Below are positions 18,898 to 42,533 of a stretch of 42,859 bases of DNA, one piece after another. The notes beneath the pieces were generated by a model. The model was given only the letters and a program-made list of their open reading frames with translations. It did not search any database and was not told the DNA's origin. The DNA is taken from positions 1 through 42,859 of the forward strand of contig DAHUYJ010000007.1 of NCBI GenBank assembly GCA_027315225.1. Reading direction: 5' to 3'. Numbering within the stretch: position 1 is the stretch's first letter; each line of letters opens with the position of its first letter. Origin of the DNA: Candidatus Saccharimonadota bacterium. GTDB taxonomy: Bacteria; Patescibacteriota; Saccharimonadia; Saccharimonadales; UBA4665. The position numbers were made by a program, and so were the translations under genes.

Positions 18898-18926
18898 TTG
18901 ATTTTGTTGCTGTTTGATGGTACTCT
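18898..18926 (+). promoter_or_regulatory. Promoter of the His-rich surface protein gene
   Basis: TTGATT (18898-18903), a 17-base spacer and TACTCT (18921-18926) preceded by TGG. Start near 18933; the leader contains GGAGG 8 bases before ATG 18959. Confidence 0.55.
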
Positions 18927-18958
18927 ACGAAAGCAGAGTGTTAATGGAGGCCAAGCCA

Positions 18959-20018: not shown

Positions 20019-20552
20019 ATGAACAAAAAAAATGCCGACAGCGCTATTAAACCCGGTGAAAAAACTGCTATCGTCGCTATACCAGAGCCTAGAAAACGAC
20101 TCTTGCTTATAGCGGTTATTTGCGTAGTTATTGTGGTAGGTGTAGTTGCAGGGATACTTATCAGCCGCACCCTACAAAACAAAGCAAGGATTAACGTATC
20201 AAAGCTCAACGCCCTTGTTCAGTCAAATGATTGCAGCAAAAAAGCCATGCAGTCTATAGGCAGCGATAAGCCCAACAAACAACAGGTGGATGCCTCTATT
20301 ACTCTCTTGAACTATAGAGGCTACTGCCTGGTGAAGAACGGCAATTACAAGCAAGCCAGCGCAGAACTCGAGCAGTTAAAGAGTTATTATGCGATTAAGG
20401 GCGACAAAGTTGCCATAAAAAACCTCAACCAACGAATCGCGACTGTTAATTATGCTGCTACCCATCACGGACGGCCATATACCAATGCCCACCCCGAACT
20501 TAGCCAGACCGAAGCTGCGAAGCTACAAAAATTCTATGAGGCACATCAATGA
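20019..20552 (+). CDS. Membrane-anchored helical (TPR-like) protein
   Basis: A 177-residue protein with a cytoplasmic N-terminus of about 27 residues, one strong membrane helix (LLLIAVICVVIVVGVVAGILI), and an extracytoplasmic helical domain. Segments such as ITLLNYRGYCLVKNGNYKQASAELEQL have the spacing of tetratricopeptide repeats, suggesting a protein-binding scaffold. Cysteines in NDCSKK and GYCLVK may pair. Its stop overlaps the start of the 1348-residue secreted protein (ATGA, 4 bases), so the two are translationally coupled and likely act together. Family unknown. Confidence 0.75.
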   Translation: MNKKNADSAIKPGEKTAIVAIPEPRKRLLLIAVICVVIVVGVVAGILISRTLQNKARINVSKLNALVQSNDCSKKAMQSIGSDKPNKQQVDASITLLNYRGYCLVKNGNYKQASAELEQLKSYYAIKGDKVAIKNLNQRIATVNYAATHHGRPYTNAHPELSQTEAAKLQKFYEAHQ

Positions 20553-23500
20553 CTAGGTACTGGGTCAAGACTAGCCTAACGGGCGCGCTATTCTTAATAG
20601 TGTTGATGTTTGTCATGAAAGTTTCGACTAGTAATGCGTATGCCGCGGCCAATAAAACGATCCAGGGCGACATCTCAAACAGCACTGATTGTCCCCAACC
20701 CCCTTCCTCTAGCAACTGTCATGCGATTACTGACAACGAAGATTCGTATTACGATATTTGGGACTCTTTGGGGACGGGTGGCGAGACCATAGAAGTAGAC
20801 GTTTACTATACTTGTACCTCTGGTGGTGTGGGGTTTGATGCATCCACTAGCGGAGGCAACGGCCTTACAAGCCGTCTGAACAGTAACATTTGCGCATCGG
20901 AACCTGCCGGCTATTCTCCTAGTAGTCCCGTGACCATGTACTTTAAAATGAATAGCCCCTGTGCTACGACGGAAAGCGGTCAGTACTGTCACGCTATTTT
21001 AGATATGCATGCAGAAGATCCTCTTGGAGATGGCGGCCATTTCTCCTACACACTGGTAATTAGACAGGGCAACAATCCATCAATCTCTTACGCTGCTCAG
21101 CAGAACCCAGGTAATACTATAGGAAGCAGTTGGCCTCCCGGCGGTAGTGATAGTCAGTTTGGTGTGTTTGCTGACAGTCAGACTATTAATTTCCAACCCC
21201 CATGCGGTTTTGGCAGTCATAATGTAGAAGTGGCGTGGAGCGGTGCTGACTACGGAGCTCCCTATCAGAATAGCGGCATTCAATTTACTTTAACGGATAA
21301 TGGCAATCCGGTTACCCTGAGCAACGGTAAATTTATCAACAATCCTATAAGTAAAGATGCACTTGGCGATTATCCCAGTAGTGCTGTTTTTTCTATTGAA
21401 TTTCAGGCAGTAGCAGGACACCATTATCAGTGGGCGTGGACAAGCGAAAGCCCATATAATGAGATTGTTTACTCCATTCCCTTTACATCGAACTCATTTG
21501 ACTACGGAGTCCAGTGTTCCTCCAAGCAGCCTACGAACCCCTCGCCAACGACCAAGGCACAGTGCTCAACTCTTTCCGTAACAGACCCGGGCGGATACAC
21601 TACAGGCAGTGGCAAAACTGCTGTTACGCATAAAACAAACACTCTGGTTAATAGTAGTAATGCGGCTCCCTCCATCAACGCCAGTAATCCCAGTAATAAC
21701 GGGGCTTCCTGGAACGGTGATAGCGGGTCGGTGAGTGGGATAGTGAGTAACGGCAGTACCAATAAATTTAACTATTTACCAACTGGGGCCAACTCTGTCA
21801 CCATTACGACCAGAACGATTTACTACGACTCAAGTGCTAATAAGTGGTATAAGGTACCCGGCAGTGATACCTCTACGACCGCTGGTCCGCCTTGCTACTC
21901 TGCAGAGTGCAACATCTACCAAGTAGTTGGTAATCTGCCTGATGGGTACACAAGCCCGGGCGGTACTGTAACTGTCTACGCAGAAGTGTGGAATGACTCT
22001 TCTATCGTAGAATACTCCGGCGACCCTGCTGCACATGCTCAGCTACAGCTACAGAATAACGGTGGCGACTTTGGTTTTGCGGCACCGGTGGCGGGATCCT
22101 CATACTTGAATACGCCTACGAATGGCGGCCAATGGACCCCTAGCAATGCGGGCTGGTGGCAACCAATCTCATTCCAGACAACGGCACCTACAACTGGCAC
22201 AAGCGGTACTATAGTCGCCCAAATGGCCTATGCCGGCGAGTTCTTTATGGGAAGCTCGTGTAGCTACACAGTTAATTTTTACCCGCCACCCTTAATTAAC
22301 GTAGATAACGCCATATGTGGCTCATCGTCACCGACGCTTAATGGTTGGGCGTTTGCCCGAAACGGCCAAGAAGGGCAATCTATAAATGTCGATGTCTATG
22401 TGGATGGACCCGCTGGTACGGGGACATACATGGGTCGCTTCCTGGCAAACGGCTCCAGGCCTGACGTAGATGCCGCTTATGGCATACCGGGGAATCACGG
22501 GTTCAGCATTCCTATACCCACTTCCTATCAAGACGGGCAGAACCATACGTTTTACGCCTATGCTATTGATCCAAGCGGTATCGAAAACGGAGGGCCTTCC
22601 ACCTATGCTATGACCGGCTGCGAATCGTTTGACCTGCAGCCGGGAGCGAATGGCGGGGCACTAAGCCCAACCATAGAATATCCGTCAAGTTTTGATGGTT
22701 CCGCTACGGTTACTGTGACATATGGTCCGAACAATAACTCATGGTATGGGCCCGATCTTAATGGCTCCAACCAGAATAAGGTGCCAGGCTTCCCGGGAGT
22801 ACCGGCTTCTGTCCCGTATACACTAACAAAGAACGGTACCGTACTTTCTAGCGGTTCAGTACCCAGCCCGACCAGCAACAGTCGCTTCAACGACACTACG
22901 TACACACCAACCGCACTCACTATCGCTCCAGGGACATATCAGGCCGGAGACACTTATTGCATTAACGTCAGCGCGGATCCCATTGACGGGTATATCCAAA
23001 ACGACGGTACCGTATTGAGCGTAACCAACGGCGGTCCGGACACCCAGTCGTCATGCGACACAGTAAAAAACCGGCCGTACTTCAAAGCCTACAATAGCGA
23101 TGTGTCGGCTGGAGGCAACTTCAAATCCATAGACAGCACCTGTGGAGGCGGCGGAACGCTCGCGGGCTGGAATAACGATAGCGGCACAAATCCAAGTTAT
23201 GATTTCGGTTCTGGCGCCCAGTTCAGTGCGCTGGCACTTGGTAACATTGTAGGTTTCGCTAGCGCGCAGCAAACCGGTGTTGACCGTTCCCGGGCCCCCA
23301 CTACCTTAAGTTTTGCCAATACCGCTAACAACAGCGGCAGCGGCACCGACGGGTCAAGTTATAGTCCATATCTGGGGGGTAAACTTGGCAGCAGTAACTG
23401 TCTGTCAGATGCGACAGCACCTGCTGACGCCGCCGCACTGGATACCGGAGGCGTTACACCATACACGCTTGGCATAAGCGGTTTATCCAGTGGCGGCCAA

Positions 23501-24595
23501 ACGATTGGCACGGCCGCCAACCCGGTGAACGTAGACCTTACGGGCGGCTCTGTAGCACCGGGCACGGACACATCCCTCTTTGTTAATGGCAATGTATATA
23601 TAAGTGGCAACATCGTTTACGGGGGTAGTAACTGGAACCTAAGCAACGTGCCGTCTTTCGCGCTGCATGCTACCGGCAACATATACATTGATCCGAGCGT
23701 AACCGAACTGGAAGGCATGTACATAGCTAAGGCTACCTCGTCGGGCGGCGGCACTATATACACATGCGGTACCAGCAGCTACGCACCCGTGGCCGCGAAG
23801 GTTTTATATGGTACCTGCAACAAACAGTTAACCGTTTATGGAAGTTTCTCCGCTAACCAGGTTAACTTGATGCGGACTTTCGGCTCACTACGCGACGCTC
23901 GACCAGTAGCAGGAGAGTCGGCGGTCAGCGTCACCAAAAATGGTACCGACTATAGTTCATGCGGGCCTTACGCACCAGGTGCCTATCCTTGCTCTGCGGA
24001 CGGCACATCAGTATACGCCCTTCAGGAGTACAAGAGTACTTACTCATTGACAATACCTGCCGGTACTGGCTACAAACTGGATCTTAACTACGGGAATTAC
24101 CAAGGCAACTGGCCGCCTCCAGCGGGGCTAAGTCCGCCCTACACGTACGATGTCGAAGTCGACGTTAATGGTGCCCAAGTAGGCAGCGACTTGCATCTCT
24201 CTGCCGCCGGGTCTTCAAAGACCGTTAACCTCGGCACCCTGCCGGCAAACCCCTCAATCACTATTACATGGAAGAACAACTACTATGGCAGTGACATAGG
24301 TTTTGTCCCTTGGAACGGTAACACTTATGCTTATGACCCGAACTTCGAAATACATTCGTTAACCGTCAGTTCGCCGGCAACCCCGACCACGCCGGCCTCA
24401 ATCACCAGCGCCGCCAGCTGTAGTAACAGCGGCGGCGGCTGGATGAGCCTGGCCTTGGGGACAGGCTACAATACGTGCGCAGCCGAGGTCTTCTATCTTG
24501 ACCCGTCCCTTTACTTGTCTAACCCGGCCATAGAACCGCCAAGCAACGGGGCCCCGCAAGCCGACTCCATTACAAGCTTGCCGCCGGTTCTCTAG
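20549..24595 (+). CDS. Large secreted Cys-rich protein, candidate adhesin
   Basis: A 1348-residue protein starting with a signal peptide or N-terminal anchor (residues 1-35, hydrophobic core ALFLIVLMFVM, then SNAYAA as a possible cleavage region). The rest is rich in Ser, Thr, Gly, Asn and aromatic residues with beta-rich character and about 24 cysteines spread through it, suggesting extracellular disulfides. Near residues 1010-1110 motifs such as LFVNGNVYISGNIVYGGSNW and ALHATGNIYIDPSVTELEGM look like a beta-solenoid. No LPXTG signal or C-terminal membrane helix is seen. Located directly before pilM, so a pilus-associated or host-contact adhesin is plausible; this role is inferred. Confidence 0.75.
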   Translation: MTRYWVKTSLTGALFLIVLMFVMKVSTSNAYAAANKTIQGDISNSTDCPQPPSSSNCHAITDNEDSYYDIWDSLGTGGETIEVDVYYTCTSGGVGFDASTSGGNGLTSRLNSNICASEPAGYSPSSPVTMYFKMNSPCATTESGQYCHAILDMHAEDPLGDGGHFSYTLVIRQGNNPSISYAAQQNPGNTIGSSWPPGGSDSQFGVFADSQTINFQPPCGFGSHNVEVAWSGADYGAPYQNSGIQFTLTDNGNPVTLSNGKFINNPISKDALGDYPSSAVFSIEFQAVAGHHYQWAWTSESPYNEIVYSIPFTSNSFDYGVQCSSKQPTNPSPTTKAQCSTLSVTDPGGYTTGSGKTAVTHKTNTLVNSSNAAPSINASNPSNNGASWNGDSGSVSGIVSNGSTNKFNYLPTGANSVTITTRTIYYDSSANKWYKVPGSDTSTTAGPPCYSAECNIYQVVGNLPDGYTSPGGTVTVYAEVWNDSSIVEYSGDPAAHAQLQLQNNGGDFGFAAPVAGSSYLNTPTNGGQWTPSNAGWWQPISFQTTAPTTGTSGTIVAQMAYAGEFFMGSSCSYTVNFYPPPLINVDNAICGSSSPTLNGWAFARNGQEGQSINVDVYVDGPAGTGTYMGRFLANGSRPDVDAAYGIPGNHGFSIPIPTSYQDGQNHTFYAYAIDPSGIENGGPSTYAMTGCESFDLQPGANGGALSPTIEYPSSFDGSATVTVTYGPNNNSWYGPDLNGSNQNKVPGFPGVPASVPYTLTKNGTVLSSGSVPSPTSNSRFNDTTYTPTALTIAPGTYQAGDTYCINVSADPIDGYIQNDGTVLSVTNGGPDTQSSCDTVKNRPYFKAYNSDVSAGGNFKSIDSTCGGGGTLAGWNNDSGTNPSYDFGSGAQFSALALGNIVGFASAQQTGVDRSRAPTTLSFANTANNSGSGTDGSSYSPYLGGKLGSSNCLSDATAPADAAALDTGGVTPYTLGISGLSSGGQTIGTAANPVNVDLTGGSVAPGTDTSLFVNGNVYISGNIVYGGSNWNLSNVPSFALHATGNIYIDPSVTELEGMYIAKATSSGGGTIYTCGTSSYAPVAAKVLYGTCNKQLTVYGSFSANQVNLMRTFGSLRDARPVAGESAVSVTKNGTDYSSCGPYAPGAYPCSADGTSVYALQEYKSTYSLTIPAGTGYKLDLNYGNYQGNWPPPAGLSPPYTYDVEVDVNGAQVGSDLHLSAAGSSKTVNLGTLPANPSITITWKNNYYGSDIGFVPWNGNTYAYDPNFEIHSLTVSSPATPTTPASITSAASCSNSGGGWMSLALGTGYNTCAAEVFYLDPSLYLSNPAIEPPSNGAPQADSITSLPPVL

Positions 24596-24598
24596 CGT

Positions 24599-24613
24599 GC
24601 TTATGCTATAATT
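24599..24613 (+). promoter_or_regulatory. Distal promoter of the pil cluster
   Basis: GCTTATGCTATAATT, with TATAAT at 24607-24612 preceded by TGC. The same 15 bases recur at 24710-24724. A transcript from here would carry a leader of about 117 bases before pilM. Confidence 0.55.
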
Positions 24614-24701: not shown

Positions 24702-24724
24702 CAGATAACGCTTATGCTATAATT
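24702..24724 (+). promoter_or_regulatory. Proximal promoter of the pil cluster
   Basis: CAGATAACGCTTATG (24702-24716) runs into an extended -10 TATAAT (24718-24723). The expected start near 24730 leaves about 6 bases before the pilM ATG 24736. The same 15-base element precedes the minor-pilin operon at 33777. Confidence 0.6.
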
Positions 24725-24735
24725 GGGGCTGCGTT

Positions 24736-25773
24736 ATGAGCTTGTTAGGCACCAAGACCGACTTCTTTGGCCTGGATATAGGAACCACGGCTGCCCGCTT
24801 AGTGCAGCTTCGTCCCAGCGGCACCCTTAAGGCCCTGGCCAAATATGCTTACGTGCCGTTGCAAGGCAACATGGCGCTAAGCGAAGCCAAGGCCGACCAG
24901 CAAAAGCTGGCCCAAACTATCAGCCAGTTGGTCAAGCAGTCCGGCGTGAACACACGCGACGTGGCGGTGGGCATCCCTTCCAGCAGAGTGTTTACGACGA
25001 TAGCTGACGTTGACCGCCTGCCAAGCGGTGAGCTGTCCAAGGCTATTACTTACCAAGCCGACTCTCTGATCCCGACCCCGCTGTCAGAGTCCAAAGTCGA
25101 CTGGGCGCTTATCGGCGACTCGCCGAGCGACAAGACCAAGCAGGAGATCCTGCTTACCAGCGTGGCAAACAAGTTTGTCGAGGCTCGCCTGGACATGCTG
25201 GAGTCCATAGGACTCAATGTAATTGCTTTCGAACCTGACAACCTGGCGATGGCGCGCGCCCTTGCGGTGCCGGATGCCGGAGCCCAGTTGCTCCTGGACG
25301 TAGGCCGCCGGTCAACAGACCTGGTTGTGGTAATGAACGGCGTGCCGCACCTGACGCGAAGTGTCCCCACCGGGGTAGAAGCTATTGTCCGGGCTGCCAC
25401 CCAGAACCTCACCATCGACGATAAGCAGGCCGAGCAGTTCGTCTTCAAGTTCGGGCTGAGCAAGGAAAAGCTGGAGGGACAGGTCTTTCAGGCGATCAGC
25501 GGCACGATCGACCTGCTGACAACCGAGATCGAAAAGTCCATTAAGTTCTTCCAGACCCGCTACACAGGTATAAAAATCGACCGTATTATCGTCACCGGCG
25601 GCGCCTCTGTTATTCCCGAGTTTCCGTTATATCTGGCTAACAAGTTCGCCCTGAACGTGGAAATCGGCAATGCCTGGCAAAATGTAAGCTACAGCCCGGA
25701 AAGGCAAAACGAGCTACTGGCAATCTCTAACCAATTCGGCGCGGCGGTCGGACTCGCGGAGCGGTCAACATGA
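24736..25773 (+). CDS. pilM: Type IV pilus assembly protein PilM
   Basis: PilM is a cytoplasmic actin-fold ATP-binding protein that holds the N-terminus of PilN and links the pilus platform to the motors. The 345-residue product shows the ASKHA phosphate loops FFGLDIGTTAARLVQL near the start and QLLLDVGRRSTDLVVVMNG in the second half, plus the adenosine-binding IIVTGGASVIPEF. Size is typical. Its end overlaps pilN by ATGA, coupling translation. First gene of the platform operon. Confidence 0.94.
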   Translation: MSLLGTKTDFFGLDIGTTAARLVQLRPSGTLKALAKYAYVPLQGNMALSEAKADQQKLAQTISQLVKQSGVNTRDVAVGIPSSRVFTTIADVDRLPSGELSKAITYQADSLIPTPLSESKVDWALIGDSPSDKTKQEILLTSVANKFVEARLDMLESIGLNVIAFEPDNLAMARALAVPDAGAQLLLDVGRRSTDLVVVMNGVPHLTRSVPTGVEAIVRAATQNLTIDDKQAEQFVFKFGLSKEKLEGQVFQAISGTIDLLTTEIEKSIKFFQTRYTGIKIDRIIVTGGASVIPEFPLYLANKFALNVEIGNAWQNVSYSPERQNELLAISNQFGAAVGLAERST

Positions 25774-26492
25774 TTGAACTGAACCTACTACCGGATGTCA
25801 AGCTAGAATACCTGAAGGCCCAGCGGGTCAGACGGCTGGTGCTCAGTGTTTCCATTATCGTAAGCCTGGCTGCCATAGTCCTGCTGGTGCTCCTGCTCGG
25901 CTATGACGGCTTGCAGAAGAAGCACCTCAGCGACCTGAACGGCAATATTGCTTCTGAGACCGGCAAGCTGCAAGGCGAGCCGAACATTAACCAGATCCTG
26001 ACCGTGCAAAACCAACTAGAAAGCCTGACGTCATTGCACAACGATAAACCGGCTGCCTCGAGACTGTTTAATTACCTCAATGAGGTTACGCCAGCGACAG
26101 TCAGTATCAATGACTTCAGCATTGACTTCACCCAGCAGACCATAACCCTTACAGGTGCAGCTAATACCCTAAGCAGCATCAACCAGTATGTCGATACGCT
26201 TAAATACACACAATATACGTCCGGGAGCAGCAAGACCTCCGGTATGGCTTTCAGCAACGTGGTACTCAGCAGCTTTGGTATTACTAGTGGTGCCACGGAT
26301 CCCAGCCAGGCCGCTTCTTATACCATTACTTTGTCGTATGATAAAGATATTTTCGATATCACACAGAACATCAAACTGACTGTACCTAGCGAGGTCGTAA
26401 CCCGTTCCGGCACCCAGCAGCCGACTGACCTGTTCAAAAAATCAACTAGCCCGTCGAGCCCTACCAGCTCGCCGAGCAATGGGGGGCAATGA
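25770..26492 (+). CDS. pilN: Type IV pilus assembly protein PilN
   Basis: PilN is a bitopic inner-membrane protein whose short cytoplasmic peptide docks in PilM. The 240-residue product begins MIELNLLPDVKLEYLKAQR, containing the conserved INLLP-type docking motif (here LNLLP), then one membrane helix (about residues 24-47), and an extracytoplasmic domain with coiled-coil and ferredoxin-like fold. The Ser/Pro/Thr-rich tail of about 25 residues is an extra. Overlaps both neighbours by 4 bases. Confidence 0.9.
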   Translation: MIELNLLPDVKLEYLKAQRVRRLVLSVSIIVSLAAIVLLVLLLGYDGLQKKHLSDLNGNIASETGKLQGEPNINQILTVQNQLESLTSLHNDKPAASRLFNYLNEVTPATVSINDFSIDFTQQTITLTGAANTLSSINQYVDTLKYTQYTSGSSKTSGMAFSNVVLSSFGITSGATDPSQAASYTITLSYDKDIFDITQNIKLTVPSEVVTRSGTQQPTDLFKKSTSPSSPTSSPSNGGQ

Positions 26493-27175
26493 CCGCCATG
26501 CCAAAACTAGACGTTTCTACTAAACGCATAGCTATTAGTAAGGCAAATGCCCAAATGGTTGCTGCGGTTAGCATAGCTTCGTTCATCACTGTTTTTTGTC
26601 TGATAGCTGCCAAGAACGTTTGGAGCCAAACTGCTTACCAGGCGCGGGTATCTGCCAAAGATGCGCAAGCCTATCAGCAGCTACAGAAAAACGTCCAAGC
26701 CTTCAATGATTTAGCGCAGTCTTATAAAAAGTTCAATTCAGACCCTACCAATATTATTGGGGGCAGCTCTACCGGTAATGGTAAAAACGCTGGCGAGAAT
26801 GCTAAAGTCATCCTGGACGCGCTACCTGATAAATATGACTTTCCAGCTCTGACTTCCAGCATAGAGAAGATCTTGACCAGTGGTAAATTTAACGTTACCG
26901 GCATCAGCGGTACCGACGAGCAGCTAAGCCAGCAGAACAATACCTCAAGCCCAAACCCGCAGCCGGTCAACATGCCCTTTTCTTTTACAGTCAGCAATGC
27001 CAACTATACATCAGTCCAACAACTGATCACCGTGCTACAGAACTCCATTCGTCCTATCCAAATAGATACGATTGATTTAACAGGTGGCACTAGTAACATG
27101 ACCTTGACCGTAAAAGCCCATACTTATTTTCAGCCTGGCAAGAAAGTAACCATAACCAAGCAGGAGGTACGATGA
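26489..27175 (+). CDS. pilO: Type IV pilus assembly protein PilO-like
   Basis: PilO pairs with PilN in the inner-membrane platform. The 228-residue product has a cytoplasmic N-terminus, one membrane helix (about residues 28-46, VAAVSIASFITVFCLIAA), a coiled-coil region and an extracytoplasmic domain (VNMPFSFTVSNANYTSVQQLI, then IQIDTIDLTGG) typical of the PilO beta-alpha fold. Identification rests on topology, size and position right after pilN. ATG 26489 overlaps the pilN stop; an in-frame ATG lies 3 codons later. Confidence 0.82.
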   Translation: MTAMPKLDVSTKRIAISKANAQMVAAVSIASFITVFCLIAAKNVWSQTAYQARVSAKDAQAYQQLQKNVQAFNDLAQSYKKFNSDPTNIIGGSSTGNGKNAGENAKVILDALPDKYDFPALTSSIEKILTSGKFNVTGISGTDEQLSQQNNTSSPNPQPVNMPFSFTVSNANYTSVQQLITVLQNSIRPIQIDTIDLTGGTSNMTLTVKAHTYFQPGKKVTITKQEVR

Positions 27176-27423
27176 AACAAAAGGACATCGCCCTCATAGT
27201 AATCATAGTTTTTATTAGTGCTATGGTCTCGTTGTTTGTATCAAAAGCCATCTTTGTGTCACCCAAAAACCGCCAGCAGCAAGTAGATGTAGTACAGCCG
27301 ATTACGTCAAAATTCCCGAAGCCCGACAAACAGTATTTCAACAATAGCTCCTTCGACCCGACGCAGCTAATCCAGATAGGCCAGAATGCCAACCCCAACC
27401 CGTTCAACACGCCGCAGCAGTAG
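27172..27423 (+). CDS. Small bitopic protein in the PilP position
   Basis: An 83-residue protein starting in an ATGA overlap with pilO. It has one N-terminal membrane helix (IALIVIIVFISAMVSLFVSKAIF) and a short Pro/Asn/Gln-rich extracytoplasmic tail. In Gram-negative bacteria this locus holds pilP, a lipoprotein that bridges to the outer-membrane secretin; here there is no lipobox and no secretin gene in the window, as expected for a single-membrane cell. It may stabilise the PilN/PilO complex. No family recognised. Confidence 0.75.
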   Translation: MKQKDIALIVIIVFISAMVSLFVSKAIFVSPKNRQQQVDVVQPITSKFPKPDKQYFNNSSFDPTQLIQIGQNANPNPFNTPQQ

Positions 27424-27432
27424 GTATTTACG

Positions 27433-29223
27433 ATGAGCGTCTTATCGTCGACCGCCGTCCAGCAAGTCGAGGAAACACTGGTTTCCAGCGGCATGATTAG
27501 CCGTGACAAACTGGAAGAAGCCCGCGCTGATGCTGCCAAACAAAAGGAGCCGCTCTTCGGCTTCATGGTCAAGAACAACTACATAACCGATGAGCAGCTG
27601 ACTAAGGCTAACGCTACGGTTACCAAGGTCCCGTATGTTAACCTGACTTCCGCTAAAATTGACCCTAAGATATTGGGCCTTTTGCCGGAGGATATCGCCA
27701 AACGGTATATGGCTGTACCTCTGGGAGAAATGCAGCATCGTCTAGTAGTTGCCATGTTGGACGCCGATAACGTCCAGGCCGTGGACTTTTTGAGCAACCG
27801 TATAGGCCGGCCGCTAAAAGTCTACGTGGCCAGCGAGAACGGCATCCGCCAGGTACTCAAGCAGTATGAAGCCCGGCTGGATACCAGGATGGGCAATGCG
27901 TTTGGCGCCAAACTATCGGGTGCCGACACTGAGGGCAAGAGCCAGACTCCAAAAGCTAAGTCCATACAGGACCTGGTGGAAGATTCGCCCATCAGCAAGG
28001 CGTTGTCAGCGATCCTGGAGTTCGCCGCAAACAATAGGGCCAGCGATGTGCACATTGAACCGATGCAAAAAGAAGTCAAGGTACGCTGCCGGGTGGACGG
28101 CGTACTACGCGAGGTTATGCGCTTACCCAAGAACGCCGAGCCAGCCCTGATTTCCCGCATAAAAATCCTGGCCAACCTTAAAATTGACGAGCATCGCACG
28201 CCGCAGGACGGACAATTCACCGTTAAAGTCGACGAACGGGAGATTGACTTGCGTATCGCCATCGCGCCGATTGTCTGGGGAGAACAGGTCGTAATCCGTT
28301 TGCTGGATAAAACCGGTACTTCGATGAAGTTGGAAGACATGGGCTACACCGGTCGGGCGCTGCGGCTGATACGCGAGGCGGTCAAACAGCCGAACGGCAT
28401 GATCCTGACCAGCGGCCCGACCGGTTCCGGCAAGTCAACTTCTATGTACGCACTGATCCAGGAAATCATGAGCGACACCATTAATATAGTTACCTTGGAA
28501 GATCCGGTGGAGTACAAGATAGACGGCGTCAACCAAATCCAGGTGAACCCGGATGTCGGGCTGACGTTCGCTTCGGGGCTGCGCAGTATTCTGCGTCAGG
28601 ATCCCGACGTCGTAATGGTCGGAGAGATCAGGGATAAAGAGACCGCCCAACTGGCAGTGCAGGCATCGCTGACTGGACACTTGGTATTTAGCACATTGCA
28701 CACCAACAGTGCCGCCGGCATTCTGCCGCGCCTGCTGGATATGGGAATTGAGCCATTCCTGATCGCCAGCACTGTCCACACCGTCATCGGCCAGCGATTG
28801 GTCCGCCGGATAGCGGATAATGACAAACAGACGTACCAATCCTCCCAGGCGGAGGCGCAGGCTATCCAGCAAACACTCGGCAAACTGCTGCCGCCAAGTG
28901 CTGACCAGGCGGAGGCTGCCGCCAAGGATCTCGGCTACAAAAGCTTGCCCTTACAGAACCAAACCGCTTATACTTTAGCTAAGGGCGTGGATACGTCCGA
29001 TACGCCCGGGGGCTACCGGGGTCGCATGGGACTGTACGAAGCCTTTGAAGTGTCGGAGTCCGTCCAGGCGCTGATTATGCAGCGGGCCACCAGCTCTCAG
29101 ATCGAGAAAGCCGCCGTGGCCGAAGGGATGATCACCATGCGCCAGGACGGTTACCTGAAAGCGCTTGACCAGCGTACGACCCTGGACGAGGTCAATCGTG
29201 TGGCCGCGGAGGATAACGCATGA
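27433..29223 (+). CDS. pilB: Type IV pilus extension ATPase PilB
   Basis: PilB powers pilin addition. The 596-residue product has an N-terminal MshEN/GspE-N domain (residues 10-150), the N2 domain with ASDVHIEP, the motor with Walker A GPTGSGKST at 328-336, Asp box and Walker B region DPDVVMVGEIRD near 391-401, and the His box HLVFSTLHTNSA. The region near 450-520, which in most GspE/PilB proteins holds a zinc-binding tetracysteine, has no cysteine (VDTSDTPGGYRGRMGLYE). It starts 9 bases after the small upstream gene. Confidence 0.95.
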   Translation: MSVLSSTAVQQVEETLVSSGMISRDKLEEARADAAKQKEPLFGFMVKNNYITDEQLTKANATVTKVPYVNLTSAKIDPKILGLLPEDIAKRYMAVPLGEMQHRLVVAMLDADNVQAVDFLSNRIGRPLKVYVASENGIRQVLKQYEARLDTRMGNAFGAKLSGADTEGKSQTPKAKSIQDLVEDSPISKALSAILEFAANNRASDVHIEPMQKEVKVRCRVDGVLREVMRLPKNAEPALISRIKILANLKIDEHRTPQDGQFTVKVDEREIDLRIAIAPIVWGEQVVIRLLDKTGTSMKLEDMGYTGRALRLIREAVKQPNGMILTSGPTGSGKSTSMYALIQEIMSDTINIVTLEDPVEYKIDGVNQIQVNPDVGLTFASGLRSILRQDPDVVMVGEIRDKETAQLAVQASLTGHLVFSTLHTNSAAGILPRLLDMGIEPFLIASTVHTVIGQRLVRRIADNDKQTYQSSQAEAQAIQQTLGKLLPPSADQAEAAAKDLGYKSLPLQNQTAYTLAKGVDTSDTPGGYRGRMGLYEAFEVSESVQALIMQRATSSQIEKAAVAEGMITMRQDGYLKALDQRTTLDEVNRVAAEDNA

Positions 29224-29276
29224 CCTGCCCGGCAATGGCAACCGGTTATAACACAGAAAGGGTGGATAACTAAGTT

Positions 29277-30347
29277 ATGGCAGCAGCGCAACCGAGGATC
29301 GAAGTTCTGCTCGACGAAGTCGTCAAGAAGAAAGGGTCTGACCTGCACCTCCAAGTCGGCTTGCCGCCGATGCTGCGGATTGACGGCGCGCTTACCCCTG
29401 TTACAGGAGCCGATCCTTTGGACGAAGAGGCGGTGGAGGCCTTGGTCTTTGCCATACTGGACGAAGACCAAAAGCAGATCCTGCTCAAGGACAAGGAGTT
29501 TGACTTCAGCTTCGCGTACGGCGATCTCGGACGGTTCCGGGTCAATGCTTTCCATGAACGCGGAAACCTGGCGGCGGCGCTTCGTCTCATCCCCAACGAA
29601 GTCCCCAGTATCGAACAGCTGGGCCTGCCGCAGATCGTTAACAAATTCGCTAATTATCCGCGCGGTCTGGTGCTGGTGACCGGCCCGACCGGTTCCGGCA
29701 AGTCGACCACGCTGGCATCGCTGATCCGCCAGATTAACAGCGAGAAGGCCGTCCATATTATTACTATCGAAGACCCTATTGAGTATGCCCACAAATCGCA
29801 GAAATCAGTCATCGTCCAGCGGGAAGTGCATTATGACACCTATTCTTTCAGCGCCGCGCTGCGCTCGGCGCTGCGCGAAGACCCTGACGTAGTGCTGATA
29901 GGCGAGATGCGCGACCTGGAAACCATTGCCAGCGCCATTACTATCGCCGAAACCGGCCACCTGGTGTTCGCGACTCTGCACACCAACAGCGCGGCGCAGA
30001 GTGTCGACCGCATGATCGATGTTTTCCCGCCGCACCAACAGCCGCAGATCAGGGCCCAATTATCCAATATTCTGGCGGCAATTGTTTCGCAGCGCCTGAT
30101 ACCGGTGATCGGCGGCGGCCGCGTCGCGGCCGCCGAGATTCTGGTGGCGACACCGGCGGTGCGCAATATCATCCGAGAAGGAAAGAGCCACCAACTGGAA
30201 GCAGTCATACAGACAGGCGCCGAGTTCGGCATGCAAGGCATGGACAAGACTCTGGTGGGCCTGATTCATGACGGTACGATTACGTACGACGAAGCCCGCA
30301 ATTTCGCGGTAGACCTTGATGAACTGGACAGGTTAATGAGAGGCTAA
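29277..30347 (+). CDS. pilT: Type IV pilus retraction ATPase PilT
   Basis: PilT drives pilus disassembly and retraction, giving twitching and pulling force. The 356-residue product has a PAS-like N-terminal domain (GSDLHLQVGLPPMLRIDGAL), Walker A GPTGSGKST at 136-144, Walker B region DPDVVLIGEMRD, and His box HLVFATLHTNSA. The C-terminal part (NIIREGKSHQLEAVIQTG, then GMQGMDKTL) matches PilT rather than PilB, which lacks this ending. A GAAAGGG site lies 53 bases into the gap after pilB. Its presence argues for dynamic pili. Confidence 0.95.
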   Translation: MAAAQPRIEVLLDEVVKKKGSDLHLQVGLPPMLRIDGALTPVTGADPLDEEAVEALVFAILDEDQKQILLKDKEFDFSFAYGDLGRFRVNAFHERGNLAAALRLIPNEVPSIEQLGLPQIVNKFANYPRGLVLVTGPTGSGKSTTLASLIRQINSEKAVHIITIEDPIEYAHKSQKSVIVQREVHYDTYSFSAALRSALREDPDVVLIGEMRDLETIASAITIAETGHLVFATLHTNSAAQSVDRMIDVFPPHQQPQIRAQLSNILAAIVSQRLIPVIGGGRVAAAEILVATPAVRNIIREGKSHQLEAVIQTGAEFGMQGMDKTLVGLIHDGTITYDEARNFAVDLDELDRLMRG

Positions 30348-30372
30348 AAACAAAACATAAGAATAAAAAGCC

Positions 30373-31590
30373 ATGCTGACATTCAATTACGAAGCCAAAA
30401 ACGCCAAAACCGGCCAAAAAGTCAAAGCCCAGGTCCAGGCCGACAACGAGCAGGCCGCCGCCAAGCTGATCAGGGAGCAGGGACTAGCACCTCTCAGCAT
30501 CAAGCTGGAGAAGAGCAGTAGCGGCGGCCGGTTCAGCCGTATCAGGACTAAGGACAAAGTGCTCTTCAGCCGTCAGCTGGCAACGCTCATTAACGCCGGA
30601 CTGCCGCTGGTACAATCCCTGCGAAGCGTGGCGCAGCAGACCACCAGCAAGCCGCTCAAAGTTGTTATTAATCAGGTTATAGCTGATGTTGAGGCTGGCA
30701 CCGCTTTCAGTGTTGCTCTCGCGAAACACCCGAATGTTTTTAATAGGGTGTATATAAGCCTGGTCGCGGCCGGCGAGACATCAGGTACATTAGACACTGG
30801 GTTAGAACGGCTGGCGGACCAACAAGAAAAGGATGCTGACATAGCAAGCAAAGTCCGCGGCGCCATGATGTACCCGGGCATTGTTCTGCTGGTTATGATC
30901 GCGGTCGTGACCTTCATGATTGTCAAGGTCTTGCCGGAGGTGCAAAGCATTTATAAGGGCTTGCCAGGAGTATCGTTGCCTTTGCCGACGGAAGTGCTGC
31001 TGGCTATCTCCCATTTTGTAACTCACTTTTGGTGGGTGGTATTGATTATTATAGCCCTGCTAGTATTTTTCGGTTCGCGCTGGGCCAATACGCTTGGCGG
31101 GCGCTCGGTGATCGACAAGTTCAAAATGAAAGCCTGGCCGGTCGGCCCGCTGTTTATGAAAATGTACATGGCCAGGTTCTCCCGCACCGGTACTACCTTG
31201 GTAGCTAGCGGCGTACCGCTTATCCAGGTGCTGGAAATCACTGCTGACGCTGTTGACAACGTACACATAACTGCGTCTTTACACAGGGCTATCGATAAGG
31301 TTAAGGGAGGCAAAGCCCTCAGCGAAGCGATATCCAACGACCCTAACTTTCTGGAACTGGTGCCGAACATGTTACGGATTGGTGAGCAATCCGGCGCCAT
31401 GGAGACCATGCTGTCCAAAATCGCCGACTACTATGAAAAAGAAGTTGACAACGAGATCAGAAACATCAGCACCATCATAGAACCAGTCATGATGGTCATC
31501 ATGGGCATAGTTGCCATTACTATTGTTGCTGCTATCCTGTTGCCTATTTACGGACTTGTGAACCAGTCTGGCTTCACCAGCAACATTTAA
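30373..31590 (+). CDS. pilC: Type IV pilus inner-membrane platform protein PilC
   Basis: PilC (GspF family) is the polytopic protein turned by the motor ATPases. The 405-residue product has the usual layout: N-terminal cytoplasmic region, first GspF domain beginning VLFSRQLATLINAGLPLVQSL, a membrane helix pair near residues 170-235, a second GspF domain with the same pattern (ARFSRTGTTLVASGVPLIQVLE), and a last membrane helix with the family signature IIEPVMMVIMGIVAITIVAAILLPIY shortened here at the end. Length is typical. Confidence 0.95.
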   Translation: MLTFNYEAKNAKTGQKVKAQVQADNEQAAAKLIREQGLAPLSIKLEKSSSGGRFSRIRTKDKVLFSRQLATLINAGLPLVQSLRSVAQQTTSKPLKVVINQVIADVEAGTAFSVALAKHPNVFNRVYISLVAAGETSGTLDTGLERLADQQEKDADIASKVRGAMMYPGIVLLVMIAVVTFMIVKVLPEVQSIYKGLPGVSLPLPTEVLLAISHFVTHFWWVVLIIIALLVFFGSRWANTLGGRSVIDKFKMKAWPVGPLFMKMYMARFSRTGTTLVASGVPLIQVLEITADAVDNVHITASLHRAIDKVKGGKALSEAISNDPNFLELVPNMLRIGEQSGAMETMLSKIADYYEKEVDNEIRNISTIIEPVMMVIMGIVAITIVAAILLPIYGLVNQSGFTSNI

Positions 31591-31601
31591 GTGAGCTATG
31601 C

Positions 31602-32138
31602 ATGAAATATTTTTGCCGCCTCTCTCGTCGGATATACGGCCCGCGCCTTTGTGGCCCAGACGGGTTTACTATAGTTGAAGTAATGATCGTGCTGGCTATA
31701 GCAGGGTTGATGCTGCTAGTCATATTTGAAGCGATACCGGCTCTGGAGCGCAGCTCACGCAACAACCAGCGTAAGCAGGATGTACAGGCTATACTGGCCG
31801 CAGTATCACACTACGAACTCAGCAATTCCGGCAATATGCCCGCAAGTGGCAGCAACTTTTTGCAGTACACCAAATTGACGTATTATGAAAATTCAGTGCG
31901 GTATAACGCGGCACCGTCTAACGGTATAGGCGTCTACGCATACGGTGATGCAACCAGTGCTCCGCATAACGTAGCTGGCAATACCTCGACGGAGGAGGTA
32001 CTAATATACAACTATCAACGTTGCAAGAGCTCCGGCGGCGGCTCAACGAGCTATGCCGCCGGCTATAGCGACGTCGTGGCACTGTATGCTGTAGAAAACG
32101 GCAAGGGCGGTGGTACACCTCTGTGCCAGCAACTTTAA
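31602..32138 (+). CDS. Prepilin, type IV pilin-like
   Basis: A 178-residue pilin precursor. A 21-residue leader (MKYFCRLSRRIYGPRLCGPDG) ends in Gly21, followed by FTIVEVMIVLAIAGLMLLVI: N-terminal Phe and Glu5 of the mature pilin are present. The leader is unusually long and holds two cysteines. The head domain is about 130 residues with Ser/Asn/Gly loops and two cysteines (QRCKSSG and PLCQQL) that may form the D-region disulfide. Just after pilC, so it is probably a major subunit. Confidence 0.88.
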   Translation: MKYFCRLSRRIYGPRLCGPDGFTIVEVMIVLAIAGLMLLVIFEAIPALERSSRNNQRKQDVQAILAAVSHYELSNSGNMPASGSNFLQYTKLTYYENSVRYNAAPSNGIGVYAYGDATSAPHNVAGNTSTEEVLIYNYQRCKSSGGGSTSYAAGYSDVVALYAVENGKGGGTPLCQQL

Positions 32139-32198
32139 GATAATGGCCGAAGTAGCAAGCTGTGGATAACTTGTCCTTGCAGGTTGCTTTTTTCTCTC
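32139..32198 (+). terminator. Possible terminator between the two pilin genes
   Basis: GCAAG near 32156 can pair with CTTGC near 32178, and AGCAA can pair with TTGCT just before a six-T run ending about 32193. The stems compete and the loop is large, so this is a weak prediction. The same stretch holds TGTGGATAA, a perfect DnaA-box sequence, as a single copy. Confidence 0.35.
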
Positions 32199-32258
32199 TC
32201 AAGCCATATCATCAAACCATAAGCATAAATACTAATCATCTGCAAAGGGGCACCTGCA

Positions 32259-32810
32259 ATGTATAAAAAACTAAAGACACCTAATAGTGACGGCTTCACT
32301 ATCATCGAAGTCATGATAGTGCTGGCCATCGCTGCCTTGATCCTGCTCATCGTCTTCTTGGCCGTACCGGCCTTGCAACGTTCCCAGAGGAACACTTCAC
32401 GCAAGAGTGATGCCGGACGTGTTTCGTCGGCTATAAATGACTTTGTCTCTAATAATAACGGACAGCTGCCTGGCGGTAGTACTGGTAGCACATGGAATAC
32501 TGACTGTAGTACTATCCTAAACGATGCCGGAAGCCTAAGCCAGTACAATTCCAGTAACAACTTCACCTGTGGCGCTAGCAGTAGTCTGGCAAGCGGTGCG
32601 GCGAACAAGTTTGAAGAGCAGTATGGCACTACAACAATGAATGCTGTCTCTGGCCAAGCGATGGTCTTGGATGAAAACGCGACGTGCCCGGCGACTGCTA
32701 GCACTACCCCCGCCACGCAGTCGGCAACTACTCCTCGCCAGGCCGCTTTGCTCTATGCAGTTGAACCATCAAGCGGCAGCTGGACGTGGGACTGCATCCA
32801 ATCAGAGTAA
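32259..32810 (+). CDS. Prepilin, type IV pilin-like
   Basis: A 183-residue pilin precursor with a 12-residue leader (MYKKLKTPNSDG), cleavage after Gly12, and mature start FTIIEVMIVLAIAALILLIV with Phe1 and Glu5. The head has Ser/Asn/Thr-rich loops and four cysteines (TDCSTI, FTCGAS, ATCPAT, WDCIQS), suggesting two disulfides. It shares the stretch NTSRKSDAGRVSSAINDFVSNN-like organisation with the pilin upstream. AAAGGGG 8 bases before the ATG and a strong terminator behind it suggest a separately controlled, abundant subunit. Confidence 0.88.
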   Translation: MYKKLKTPNSDGFTIIEVMIVLAIAALILLIVFLAVPALQRSQRNTSRKSDAGRVSSAINDFVSNNNGQLPGGSTGSTWNTDCSTILNDAGSLSQYNSSNNFTCGASSSLASGAANKFEEQYGTTTMNAVSGQAMVLDENATCPATASTTPATQSATTPRQAALLYAVEPSSGSWTWDCIQSE

Positions 32811-32882: not shown

Positions 32883-32890
32883 AAGTGCTA

Positions 32891-33766
32891 ATGATTATTG
32901 CCATACTGGTGGTCGTCGGCCTGTGCTTCGGCAGCTTCGTGAACGCACTGGTGTGGCGGCTTCACGAACAGGCTGAGGTAGCCTCTAAGCTCTCCCGATC
33001 CGAAAAGAACCCGAGTAAAAAAACCCGGGAACTGCGTGTGGAGCAGCAGCGGCTCTCCGTGCTTAAGGGCCGCTCCATGTGCCCCGACTGCCATCACGAG
33101 CTTGCGGCCGTGGATATGGTGCCTGTTATCAGCTGGCTGGCGCTTAGAGGCCGGTGCCGCTACTGCGGCCATCCCATTATGCCGCAGTATCCGCTGGTAG
33201 AGCTGGTAACGGCCGGCTTGTTCGTAGCCTCGTATATCTGGTGGCCCGTAGCATTTGGCACGGCGCAAACTGCAATCTTTGCGCTCTGGTTACTGCTGAT
33301 TACCGGCTTGATGGCGCTGCTAGTCTACGATATACGGTGGAAGCTGTTGCCTAGCCGCCTAATCTATCCATTGAGCGCTATCGCCACGTTTATGGCAATT
33401 ACTGCCATAGCTACCGCGCACAGTCCGTGGGCAGCTGTTTTGAACGCCATATTGGCAGTCGCAGTGGGCGGCGGGCTATTTTACGCGTTATTCCAGGCGT
33501 CGTCCGGTAAATGGATCGGGGGCGGGGACGTGCGTCTAGGGTTTCTGCTTGGGCTTGTAGCAATAACGCCTGCTCGAAGCTTCTTATTTATATTTTTGGC
33601 GGCGCTGCTTGGCAGTCTGCTGAGCCTGCCGCTTCTGGCGACAAAGCGCCTCAAGCGTAACAGCACTATACCGTTCGGACCGTTCCTGATAATCGCCCTG
33701 ATCGTGGTGCAACTTTTCGGCACTGCTATACTCAACTGGTATCAGCGCGTGTTCATCGGACTTTAG
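32891..33766 (+). CDS. pilD: Prepilin peptidase / N-methyltransferase PilD
   Basis: PilD cuts the leader off prepilins and methylates the new N-terminus. The 291-residue membrane protein begins with the N-terminal membrane helix and the GSFVNALVWRL signature, then a cytoplasmic loop with two zinc-type CxxC pairs (CPDC and CRYC), followed by further membrane helices. The two catalytic aspartates of the TFPP aspartic protease are visible in LVYDIRWKLLPSRLI and in the GGGDVRLGFLLGL (GxGD) motif. The frame opens at GTG 32885, but the promoter position favours ATG 32891. It should process the six prepilins in this cluster. Confidence 0.95.
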   Translation: MIIAILVVVGLCFGSFVNALVWRLHEQAEVASKLSRSEKNPSKKTRELRVEQQRLSVLKGRSMCPDCHHELAAVDMVPVISWLALRGRCRYCGHPIMPQYPLVELVTAGLFVASYIWWPVAFGTAQTAIFALWLLLITGLMALLVYDIRWKLLPSRLIYPLSAIATFMAITAIATAHSPWAAVLNAILAVAVGGGLFYALFQASSGKWIGGGDVRLGFLLGLVAITPARSFLFIFLAALLGSLLSLPLLATKRLKRNSTIPFGPFLIIALIVVQLFGTAILNWYQRVFIGL

Positions 33767-33807: not shown

Positions 33808-34608
33808 ATGAAAGGTGAAAAATCACCTCTCGGCTATACCATTGTTGAAGTCATGATTGTACTGGCAGTTTCCGGCGTAATGTTCCTGATAGCAGCTAGC
33901 TTCATCAGCGGAAAGCAGGAGAACACTGCTTTTACCGAAGGTGCTAACCAAATGGCATCCGAAATTCAAAACACCATTTCTCAGGTTATCGCCGGTAAGT
34001 ATAGCGATATACCTCTCAACTGCACATATGATTCCATTGCCGGGACAAACCCCAACGTCTCCGGCTTCGGGTCTCCTGGCCAGGGTGCTAACCCGCAGTG
34101 TATGTTCTTGGGCAAAATGCTTTATTTTGTGATGCCTTTGCCCACCACAAATTACGAGACCGTATCCGTTGCTGGCGGCCGGGTGGATAGTTCGGGAAAC
34201 CCCATAACCGACCTGACTACGGCCAAACCGGCTATAATTACCGATCTCACCACGGACCAAATTACACCTCAAAGCCTTGATATCGGCAAGATCACTGTCA
34301 ACGGAGGGTCTACCACAACACCGGCAATCGGCTTTTTGCAAAGTCAGGGTTCGACAATGAACGGTACAACCCTCGCCAACGGAGCCCAGACCGTCGGGCT
34401 ATATTACTACACCGGTTCGGCTACAGATTTTCCTTCATCCCCGACCGCATCATCAGCGCTTAAAGGCAGTAACATTGCCCCTGCTCAGAGCATCGATCTT
34501 TGTATAACCGACAGCATCCGCTATGCCGACATCACGTTGGGAGTCACCGGTGGACAGCTCAATGCGACTGTTAAGATGGACGGTCAGACAAGGCCCGCCA
34601 CATGTTAA
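33808..34608 (+). CDS. Minor pilin, GspH/FimT position
   Basis: A 266-residue prepilin with a 9-residue leader (MKGEKSPLG) and mature start YTIVEVMIVLAVSGVMFLIA, carrying Glu5. Tyr replaces the usual Phe/Met at position 1. The head is large and beta-rich with cysteines in LNCTYD, PQCMFL, DLCITD and the final ATC. It opens a four-gene operon in the order typical of the initiation complex (GspH, I, J, K), and overlaps the next gene by 7 bases. Confidence 0.83.
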   Translation: MKGEKSPLGYTIVEVMIVLAVSGVMFLIAASFISGKQENTAFTEGANQMASEIQNTISQVIAGKYSDIPLNCTYDSIAGTNPNVSGFGSPGQGANPQCMFLGKMLYFVMPLPTTNYETVSVAGGRVDSSGNPITDLTTAKPAIITDLTTDQITPQSLDIGKITVNGGSTTTPAIGFLQSQGSTMNGTTLANGAQTVGLYYYTGSATDFPSSPTASSALKGSNIAPAQSIDLCITDSIRYADITLGVTGGQLNATVKMDGQTRPATC

Positions 34609-35885
34609 AAAAAATAAAAATGTTAGATGCCAAAGGCGACACTATCGTTGAGGTTATGGTAGTGCTGGCAGTACTGGGTCTGGCGATTAGTGTTTCCTAT
34701 GCTACGGCTAACCGGAGCCTGCTTAATACCCGCCAGGCCGAAGAAAACGCCCAGGCGACCGCATTCGCCCAATCACAGATTGAGGCCTTACGTTATCTGG
34801 CGCCAAACGCGGCTGCCGACCCGTCCAACGACATATTTTCGCAGAGCGGTTTGTTTTGTATTGATACCAGCAATAACGTAGTTCCAACTTCACCTCACGA
34901 AAATGACTACTCCAATTTTTCAGGAAGCAATAGCTATCCCGCCAGCTGCACTAACTCCGGGCTGCCATACCACATGGCAGTTGCTAATTGTACGCCTAGC
35001 AACATTACTGATCCTGCCGTAACAGCAATATGTAATGGCGCACAAGGCACTTTCGTAGCACAAGTTATGTGGCCGGACGTGGAAGGGCAAGGTAACGATA
35101 CCGTAACCCTGTTTTATAGAGTGTACCAGTCTGTCCCTCAGGTTACTCAGGCTCCTGGTGGTGGCGGCGGCGGTAGTCTGTCTCCTGTCCTTACAACTTC
35201 TGGATGCACTGGTCCGGTCGGGGTAGATTGGACGGGATATGCTTGTCGGTCAGGTGATAAAGTTTCAGTAACCGTAAGTGGTGTCAATTCTGGAGACACT
35301 TGCACGCTCAAGAACGACCAAGGCGATGGCTCCGGGTCTACGATGGTCACTCTTACCGCCAGCGGTACGAGCTGTTCAGGCAATTTCAACTTTAATAAAT
35401 TTGGCGGGAACGCCCAAACAGATTACCTGACAGCCTATGTTAGTGATAGCGGCCAAACCTTTAACTCAAACACGGTCTCATTAGAATCATGGGCCAATAC
35501 GCCTATTTATGACGCCTGCAGCTGGCCAGGCCCTGATCATGCATACGGGGGCGTCGACTATTCCAACTGGGTTTATACAATTAATTCCGATAGCTGTCCG
35601 TCCGGCACAACACCATGCACACCTGGAGTCAACTGCCCCGGAGTGGGTAGCAGTCCTGGAACTTATGGTGCTGACGTTGCCTGCGCGACAGGTTCAATTT
35701 ACGTGTATGGTTCGACCTGGAACGGCCACAATAATAATGGTATCCCGTGTCCGCCAGGTACTACACAGGTGTCTCGTGCGGTAGTTCCACCTAATATTTC
35801 TCCCGTAGAACAACAGTACGCGCTAAAACCGGATATTAGTAAAGTTGTAGGGTGGCAAAGGGCTATATATGCGGCTACGGGATAG
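34602..35885 (+). CDS. Minor pilin (GspI/PilV position) with Gly hinge and extra Cys-rich domain
   Basis: A 427-residue prepilin. The leader MLKKIKMLDAKG is followed by DTIVEVMVVLAVLGLAISVS; Glu5 is present but position 1 is Asp, which is unusual. After a pilin-like head of about 170 residues comes a hinge APGGGGGGS (about residues 184-192) and then some 235 residues rich in Gly, Ser, Thr and Cys with Ig-like strand patterns (KVSVTVSGVNSGDTCTLKND). This second domain has many cysteines and Pro and probably sits at the pilus tip. A binding role is inferred. The 3' end overlaps the next gene by 17 bases. Confidence 0.82.
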   Translation: MLKKIKMLDAKGDTIVEVMVVLAVLGLAISVSYATANRSLLNTRQAEENAQATAFAQSQIEALRYLAPNAAADPSNDIFSQSGLFCIDTSNNVVPTSPHENDYSNFSGSNSYPASCTNSGLPYHMAVANCTPSNITDPAVTAICNGAQGTFVAQVMWPDVEGQGNDTVTLFYRVYQSVPQVTQAPGGGGGGSLSPVLTTSGCTGPVGVDWTGYACRSGDKVSVTVSGVNSGDTCTLKNDQGDGSGSTMVTLTASGTSCSGNFNFNKFGGNAQTDYLTAYVSDSGQTFNSNTVSLESWANTPIYDACSWPGPDHAYGGVDYSNWVYTINSDSCPSGTTPCTPGVNCPGVGSSPGTYGADVACATGSIYVYGSTWNGHNNNGIPCPPGTTQVSRAVVPPNISPVEQQYALKPDISKVVGWQRAIYAATG

Positions 35886-36522
35886 CAAAGCCGGCTTTAC
35901 TATTATTGAGCTGATGATAGCGTCGGCGGTGCTGTCAACGATTCTGCTGCTCGTTACTGCCTTGATGATCAGTATCGGCAGCCTGTACTACAAAGGCGTA
36001 AACGAATCCAGCGTGCAGGATGATGTCCGCAGTATTGCCACTGATGTATCACAACAGCTTCAGATCAGCGACGGCTTTACGACGGCTTCCTCTAACTTGT
36101 CGTATCCCAATGTACAGGCTTACTGCGTAGGATCTATGCGTTATACATTTATAACTGGCGTAGAAATAGGCCAGACGGTCGGCGTCGGCGGCTCGGGTAC
36201 GACGTACTATCATATTCTCTGGCGGGATACCAACCCAACACCAGGCAATTGTACGATCGATAACACCAACGGCGGTGCCTTAACTACCGAAAACCCAAGC
36301 GATTCTGGAGGTACTGAGCTTATAGCTCCGAACTCTCGCCTCACGGCTTTCTCAATTACCGGCTCATCACCTTACGCTATATCTGTTGGGGTGGCATATG
36401 GCGCTGCCGACCTGCTTAATTTGAATGGAATTAACACTACCTGCAAAGGCGGCACCGGAGACCAGTTCTGTGGTACGGCCAGCTTGACCACGACAGTCGT
36501 GCAACGCATAACCGGTTCGTAG
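35869..36522 (+). CDS. Minor pilin, GspJ/PilW position
   Basis: A 217-residue prepilin with a 9-residue leader (MRLRDSKAG) and mature start FTIIELMIASAVLSTILLLV, with Phe1 and Glu5. The following QDDVRSIATDVSQQL segment is typical of PilW/GspJ-type minor pilins. The head is Gly/Ser/Thr-rich with four cysteines. ATG 35869 lies inside the end of the previous gene, giving coupled translation. Confidence 0.83.
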   Translation: MRLRDSKAGFTIIELMIASAVLSTILLLVTALMISIGSLYYKGVNESSVQDDVRSIATDVSQQLQISDGFTTASSNLSYPNVQAYCVGSMRYTFITGVEIGQTVGVGGSGTTYYHILWRDTNPTPGNCTIDNTNGGALTTENPSDSGGTELIAPNSRLTAFSITGSSPYAISVGVAYGAADLLNLNGINTTCKGGTGDQFCGTASLTTTVVQRITGS

Positions 36523-42492: not shown

Positions 42493-42533
42493 TTGACTTA
42501 TTAACAAGCTTATGCTAATATTAGTGTAAGCTT
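42493..42533 (+). promoter_or_regulatory. Promoter with large palindrome
   Basis: TTGACT (42493-42498), a 17-base spacer and TAATAT (42516-42521) preceded by TGC form a good promoter. The -10 sits inside a nearly perfect 28-base palindrome: outer arms AAGCTTA (42506-42512)/TAAGCTT (42527-42533) and inner CTAATATTAG (42515-42524). A T-run follows, so it could also fold as a terminator. Operator is the favoured reading. The rest of 42451-42569 is AT-rich with nothing else recognised. Confidence 0.55.

Follow-up and report, generated by a model that had tools for sequence, protein, structure and literature searches.

A large secreted protein encoded beside pilM probably forms the tip of Saccharibacterial type IV pili and primes their assembly

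The PilY1/PilC proteins of type IVa pili (Myxococcus, Pseudomonas, Neisseria) carry a type I signal peptide, a poorly conserved N-terminus and a conserved C-terminus, and are encoded in minor pilin/pilY1 clusters (PMC7541494; PMC13190605). ComZ of Thermus thermophilus is a DNA-binding pilin with an inserted β-solenoid; a position at the pilus tip has been argued for it, and DNA is probably bound there (PMC6561018). For Saccharibacteria, PilX1 and PilX2 of Nanosynbacter lyticus TM7x, which have large C-terminal domains, were proposed to be pilus-tip components, with PilX2 suggested as the adhesin of a second pilus; the genes listed in that study are those of the machinery and the pilins, and no secreted tip protein is mentioned in its main text (PMC12206443). 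Saccharibacteria are naturally competent, and most type IV pilus (T4P) genes are essential in S. epibionticum (PMC10633639).

We analyzed a stretch of 42,859 nucleotides (the window) from a Saccharibacteria-type genome of 0.97 Mb, in which the gene for a 1348-residue secreted protein, here termed BIG, lies between the gene for a small membrane protein and a set of pil genes:

20019..20552, + strand: 177-aa partner, anchored by a single N-terminal membrane segment and with a TPR-like domain predicted to be extramembrane
20549..24595, + strand: BIG (1348 aa, secreted), proposed pilus tip and priming protein
24599..24613, + strand: extended -10-like box, copy 1 (GCTTATGCTATAATT)
24710..24724, + strand: extended -10-like box, copy 2 (GCTTATGCTATAATT), just 5´ of pilM
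24736..31590, + strand: pilM, pilN, pilO, pilB, pilT and pilC, by family matches (pilO by position and relatives)
31602..32810, + strand: two pilins
32885..33766, + strand: prepilin peptidase PilD (A24_N_bact, 5.8e-29; Peptidase_A24)
33808..36522, + strand: three minor pilins
36527..37678, + strand: PilX (PilX_N), proposed direct partner of BIG

The two ORFs lie exactly at the originally stated positions (20019-24595); they encode 177 and 1348 residues and share an ATGA of 4 nt. Equimolar or paired production had also been read from this overlap, a step that we reject, because pilM/pilN and pilN/pilO in the window are joined by ATGA overlaps as well; the preservation of the arrangement across loci is stronger evidence for a pairing of BIG with its partner than the overlap itself. 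Upstream of the partner gene, positions 18914-19891 encode a 325-aa protein with no family match, which ORFs 5´ of BIG in two other loci (L036, L040) resemble by eye.

The following features were assigned within BIG:

20549..20647, + strand: signal peptide of the Sec type, residues 1 to ~33 (MTRYWVKTSLTGALFLIVLMFVMKVSTSNAYAA), from sequence
20648..23014, + strand: variable N-terminal region, aa 34-822, proposed outermost part
22283..22618, + strand: Ig/FN3-like mobile module, aa 579-690, pLDDT about 76-92
23015..23938, + strand: conserved C-terminal module, aa 823-1130, by profile A3
23438..23893, + strand: β-solenoid core of the module, about aa 964-1115, ComZ-like in predicted structure
24005..24376, + strand: jelly-roll insert, aa 1153-1276, CBM35/CBM6-like in predicted structure
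24473..24592, + strand: conserved C-terminal tail, CAAEVFYLDPSLYL...ADSITSLPPVL-COOH

The signal sequence, the roughly 24 cysteines (exactly 24 by count) and the β-solenoid-like segment of the original prediction were all borne out, and four of the cysteines, Cys836, 865, 1073 and 1090 of the module, are near-invariant among relatives. BIG itself had no significant match in Pfam or NCBIfam. By simple sequence criteria rather than a trained predictor, a single N-terminal hydrophobic segment was seen in each of the 59 homologues checked and an AxA-like site in 49, whereas a prepilin motif or a second membrane segment was seen in none.

BIG resembles PilY1 in its type I signal peptide and lack of a pilin domain, its variable N-terminal region followed by a conserved C-terminal docking region, its very large size and its coding with minor pilins and PilX. 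The two differ in the conserved region, which is a β-propeller in PilY1 and a β-solenoid in BIG; the conserved C-terminal tail, the usual position of the gene just 5´ of pilM and the overlapping TPR-like membrane partner are further features of BIG unlike PilY1. By hmmscan, BIG and 46 relatives gave no match to the PilY1 β-propeller family (PF05567). A six-frame search of 93 genomes for PilY1, and likewise one of the relatives for DUF7305, gave no match in runs that also left the controls undetected, so these two negatives carry no weight. Since BIG has the testable features of PilY1 save the propeller, with a solenoid in its place, we regard it as a PilY1-like tip protein and not as a member of PilY1.

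The solenoid was predicted with confidence. An AlphaFold2 model of residues 689-1348, built with 59 sequences, had a mean pLDDT of 74, rising above 90 in the β-solenoid at ~960-1115. Among solved structures, the best VIA-align match of this modeled C-terminal half was ComZ (6qvi_A; Z 13.0, 223 residues aligned), and the next scored 8.5. The module profile had no match among PDB sequences; the likeness to ComZ is structural only and on a predicted model. ComZ (PDB 6QVI) and BIG share a β-solenoid at a proposed pilus tip, but ComZ is a pilin that carries the solenoid within the pilin fold, whereas BIG has a Sec-type signal, no prepilin motif (0/59 homologues) and an extra N-terminal region. For the insert at 1153-1276, modeled at pLDDT about 58-81, Foldseek gave E 2.6e-4 to the EclA sugar-binding domain and VIA gave Z 8.5 to CBM35; the insert sequence had no match in the PDB. 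The N-terminal model was poor (pLDDT 52) and unusable outside the Ig-like module at aa 579-690; its structure matches were generic Ig/FN3, and adhesive domains in this region are only putative. DUF7305 (PF23981) matched the module weakly in 2/47 relatives and in a protein from outside the class (L135), the best E being 7e-5 at 23.2 bits; the L135 score of 23.2 bits falls below the family cut-off of 27 bits, and BIG itself was unmatched.

The extreme C-terminus is also conserved. Pro at position -3 was found in 55/59 relatives and Leu at -5 in 52/59, and one five-residue end pattern fits 49/59, a typical end being YDSITSLPPVL-COOH. Elsewhere in these loci the pattern is almost absent: about 940 other ORFs yielded only five with it, two of them being one more BIG-like copy and a fragment of BIG. 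The last residues are ELPPRF or HELAPRY in Nanosynbacteraceae-type relatives (such labels are our reading of genome groups); in relatives outside the class they are often WREINP, WSEVAP, WYEIVP or similar. We read the tail as a putative docking peptide.

We examined how widely the protein is found. A single-sequence search detected relatives in 111 of the 393 class genomes, mostly via residues 780-1120, and a single-protein search of named genomes gave matches in uncultured Saccharibacteria only. A profile (A3; 58 rows) of this C-terminal region of ~300 residues located the module in 353/393 genomes of the Saccharibacteria class and in 94 Patescibacteria outside it. The length of the relatives ranges from roughly 400 to 2100 aa, with 64-1715 aa before the module, and the N-terminal 820 residues of BIG resemble those of only a small minority of 61 homologues (E 1e-2). 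The Ig-like module of BIG (579-690) recurs in five other loci (L061, twice; L048, L084, L088, L042), so module shuffling seems to have shaped the N-terminal regions. The module is acidic (mean net charge -1.2 per 100 aa) and the N-terminal region of BIG more so (-4.9). BIG belongs to a fast-changing family present in most Saccharibacteria and in other Patescibacteria. Full-text literature searches, with subscription papers, preprints and supplementary tables outside their scope, returned no paper describing BIG, and we regard the novelty of the family as provisional.

Two unusual frames were encountered in these searches. A 25,343-codon open frame with the module in one genome (G002; L141/L184-L187, G002:C2:316045-392077) was rejected as an artefact of a 72-kb masked N run; a real module protein ends at the end of the false frame, adjoining PilN, PilC and PilM. 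The module protein at L135:8105-10147 has a Hint (intein-like) domain near its N-terminus along with its weak DUF7305 match, a composition that suggests possible self-cleavage of a pilus-linked secreted protein.

PilM was found in 387/393 class genomes. Positions of PilM and of the module were both listed for 102 genomes; 96 of these have the module immediately 5´ of pilM in the same orientation, with a median module-to-pilM distance of 247 nt. The six exceptions include a locus split by contig ends (G266), and nine genomes have two tandem BIG copies. Outside the class, a module protein is directly 5´ of pilM in 6/19 loci (L124, L127, L128, L131, L132, L140). The pair therefore does stay beside pilM, the partner being conserved too, and a lack of conserved linkage to pil genes is excluded by these counts together with the way that BIG tracks a relocated minor-pilin/PilX cluster. 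In one genome (G107), the pilM locus (C3, L171) is without BIG, minor pilins and PilX, and BIG, PilX and three minor pilins are found together on another contig (C5, L188). In two others (G132, L191; G229, L195), a second BIG is beside a second minor-pilin/PilX cluster, and in Nanosynbacteraceae-type genomes BIG adjoins PilX or minor pilins (L150, L151, L155, L159, L161). Joint absence was seen in G236, whose pil locus (L189) has no BIG, PilX or minor pilins. Over 93 genomes of the family, 63 had both BIG and PilX, 4 BIG only, 13 PilX only and 13 neither, a co-occurrence with p 5e-6, uncorrected for kinship and incomplete assemblies. Since BIG is inherited, moved and lost with the pilus-tip genes, it is probably a tip protein for starting pili and touching cells.

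Some loci count against a place at the pilus tip: the 13 genomes with PilX and no BIG, three genomes with pilM and no detected adjacent BIG (G292, G365, G289), and several BIG copies of genus g37 with no detected pil gene nearby (L080, L147, L158). Several loci with pilM or PilX and no BIG are ended by contig edges. The g37 copies are 986-1891 aa long, and L080 has two BIG relatives back to back with a small membrane partner for each.

Partner equivalents were present 5´ of BIG homologues in most loci, the upstream ORF overlapping by 4 nt in 27 of 61 loci and by 1 nt in 7. The description of the window partner as a TPR-like membrane protein holds: its single membrane segment is N-terminal and TPR_2 matches it weakly, and the assignment is strengthened by its positional equivalents, which matched TPR_2 in 14/48 cases and TPR_1 in 9/48. 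These partners are 100-364 aa long, likewise with one N-terminal membrane segment. In 46/48 of them the number of Lys plus Arg before the segment is at least that after it; with the basic side first, the bulk of the partner is probably outside the cell membrane. At the sequence level, the window partner found matches in just three further genomes of its family, and it is therefore the arrangement and not the sequence that is conserved. We consider the TPR-like partner to be probably an escort or anchor for BIG. In five loci (L035, L046, L051, L058, L060) it is replaced by a membrane-anchored protein of 304-364 aa with a 'VFVIDGKxY' start, which appeared SurA/PrsA-like by eye and had no match in Pfam.

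The BIG stop codon occupies 24593-24595, and pilus promoters had been predicted right after it. Two exact copies of an extended -10-like box (GCTTATGCTATAATT) are indeed present between BIG and pilM, against a chance expectation of 0.09 matches (≤2 mismatches, whole window), but no -35 was recognizable for either, and a sigma-70 scan gave no two-hexamer promoter between the two genes; the boxes are putative promoters. A third near-copy with 2 mismatches is at 42508-42522 of the window.

Collectively, the gene linkage, the relocation and loss of BIG in step with PilX and the minor pilins, the PilY1-like layout and the ComZ-like fold prediction lead us to propose that BIG probably forms the tip of the type IV pilus in Saccharibacteria and primes its assembly, thereby doing the work of PilY1 with a docking fold of another kind. 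BIG would be exported by Sec and escorted or held at the membrane by the overlapping TPR-like partner. Its β-solenoid module and tail would then dock on PilX and the minor pilins, the tail perhaps supplying PilX with an extra strand, in the way predicted for PilX and PilY1. Such docking, to which gene linkage, joint relocation and joint loss point, would prime the pilus above PilM/N/O/B/C. Extension of the pilus would put BIG at the tip with the variable N-terminal region and the CBM35-like insert outward, where they may touch a surface, probably envelope glycans of a host bacterium. Host adhesion by BIG is plausible, given the epibiont lifestyle, the N-terminal variability and the CBM-like insert. 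BIG differs from PilX1 and PilX2 of TM7x, which are PilX-type minor pilins, in being a separate secreted protein encoded beside PilX, one that is not among the pilus genes named in the main text on the TM7x pili (PMC12206443).

The adhesion step is what divides this proposal from an overlapping one, in which BIG primes or stabilizes the pilus and binds no host, its N-terminal variation being drift or phage evasion. Conservation limited to the docking half and the essentiality of most T4P genes in S. epibionticum (PMC10633639) fit such an assembly factor, but binding is suggested by the CBM35-like insert and by the N-terminal regions, which reach 1700 aa and contain mobile Ig-like modules, and we consider it unlikely that assembly is the only role. 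ComZ, the top structural match of the C-terminal half, binds DNA (PMC6561018), and with natural competence documented in Saccharibacteria (PMC10633639), BIG might instead cap a competence pilus and catch DNA for natural transformation. We think this quite improbable: module and N-terminal region are acidic, a plain DNA receptor would not be expected to have such large, fast-changing N-terminal regions or a CBM-like insert, and BIG, unlike ComZ, has no pilin domain.

The original prediction was of a host-attachment system in which an anchored partner and a giant adhesin act with pili. Its linkage to pil genes and the conservation of the partner stood, but a role for the protein within the pilus itself explains the data better than a separate attachment system beside the pili. 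That BIG is an independent cell-surface adhesin, anchored by the TPR-like partner and working beside the pilus rather than on it, would agree with the conserved, overlapping membrane partner, the separate promoter-like boxes before pilM and the remote copies of genus g37. It is very unlikely, as BIG moves and is lost jointly with PilX and minor pilins and its relatives have no second membrane segment.

The pilus-tip proposal touches on how Patescibacteria recognize and hold their hosts. The module profile and C-terminal tail form a simple signature by which a named candidate can be picked out in most genomes of Saccharibacteria and in other Patescibacteria, and BIG would show that a different fold has taken over the role of PilY1. 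More tentatively, and with somewhat less than even confidence, we suggest that the family comprises phylum-wide patescibacterial pilus-tip adhesins unrelated to PilY1, in which the fast-evolving N-terminal region reads host identity and docking on PilX is through the solenoid and a C-terminal peptide that completes the PilX sheet; this peptide is LPPVL-COOH in most Saccharibacteria and elsewhere WxEVxP or the like. If so, the BIG family would be a main determinant of which bacterium an epibiont can attach to.
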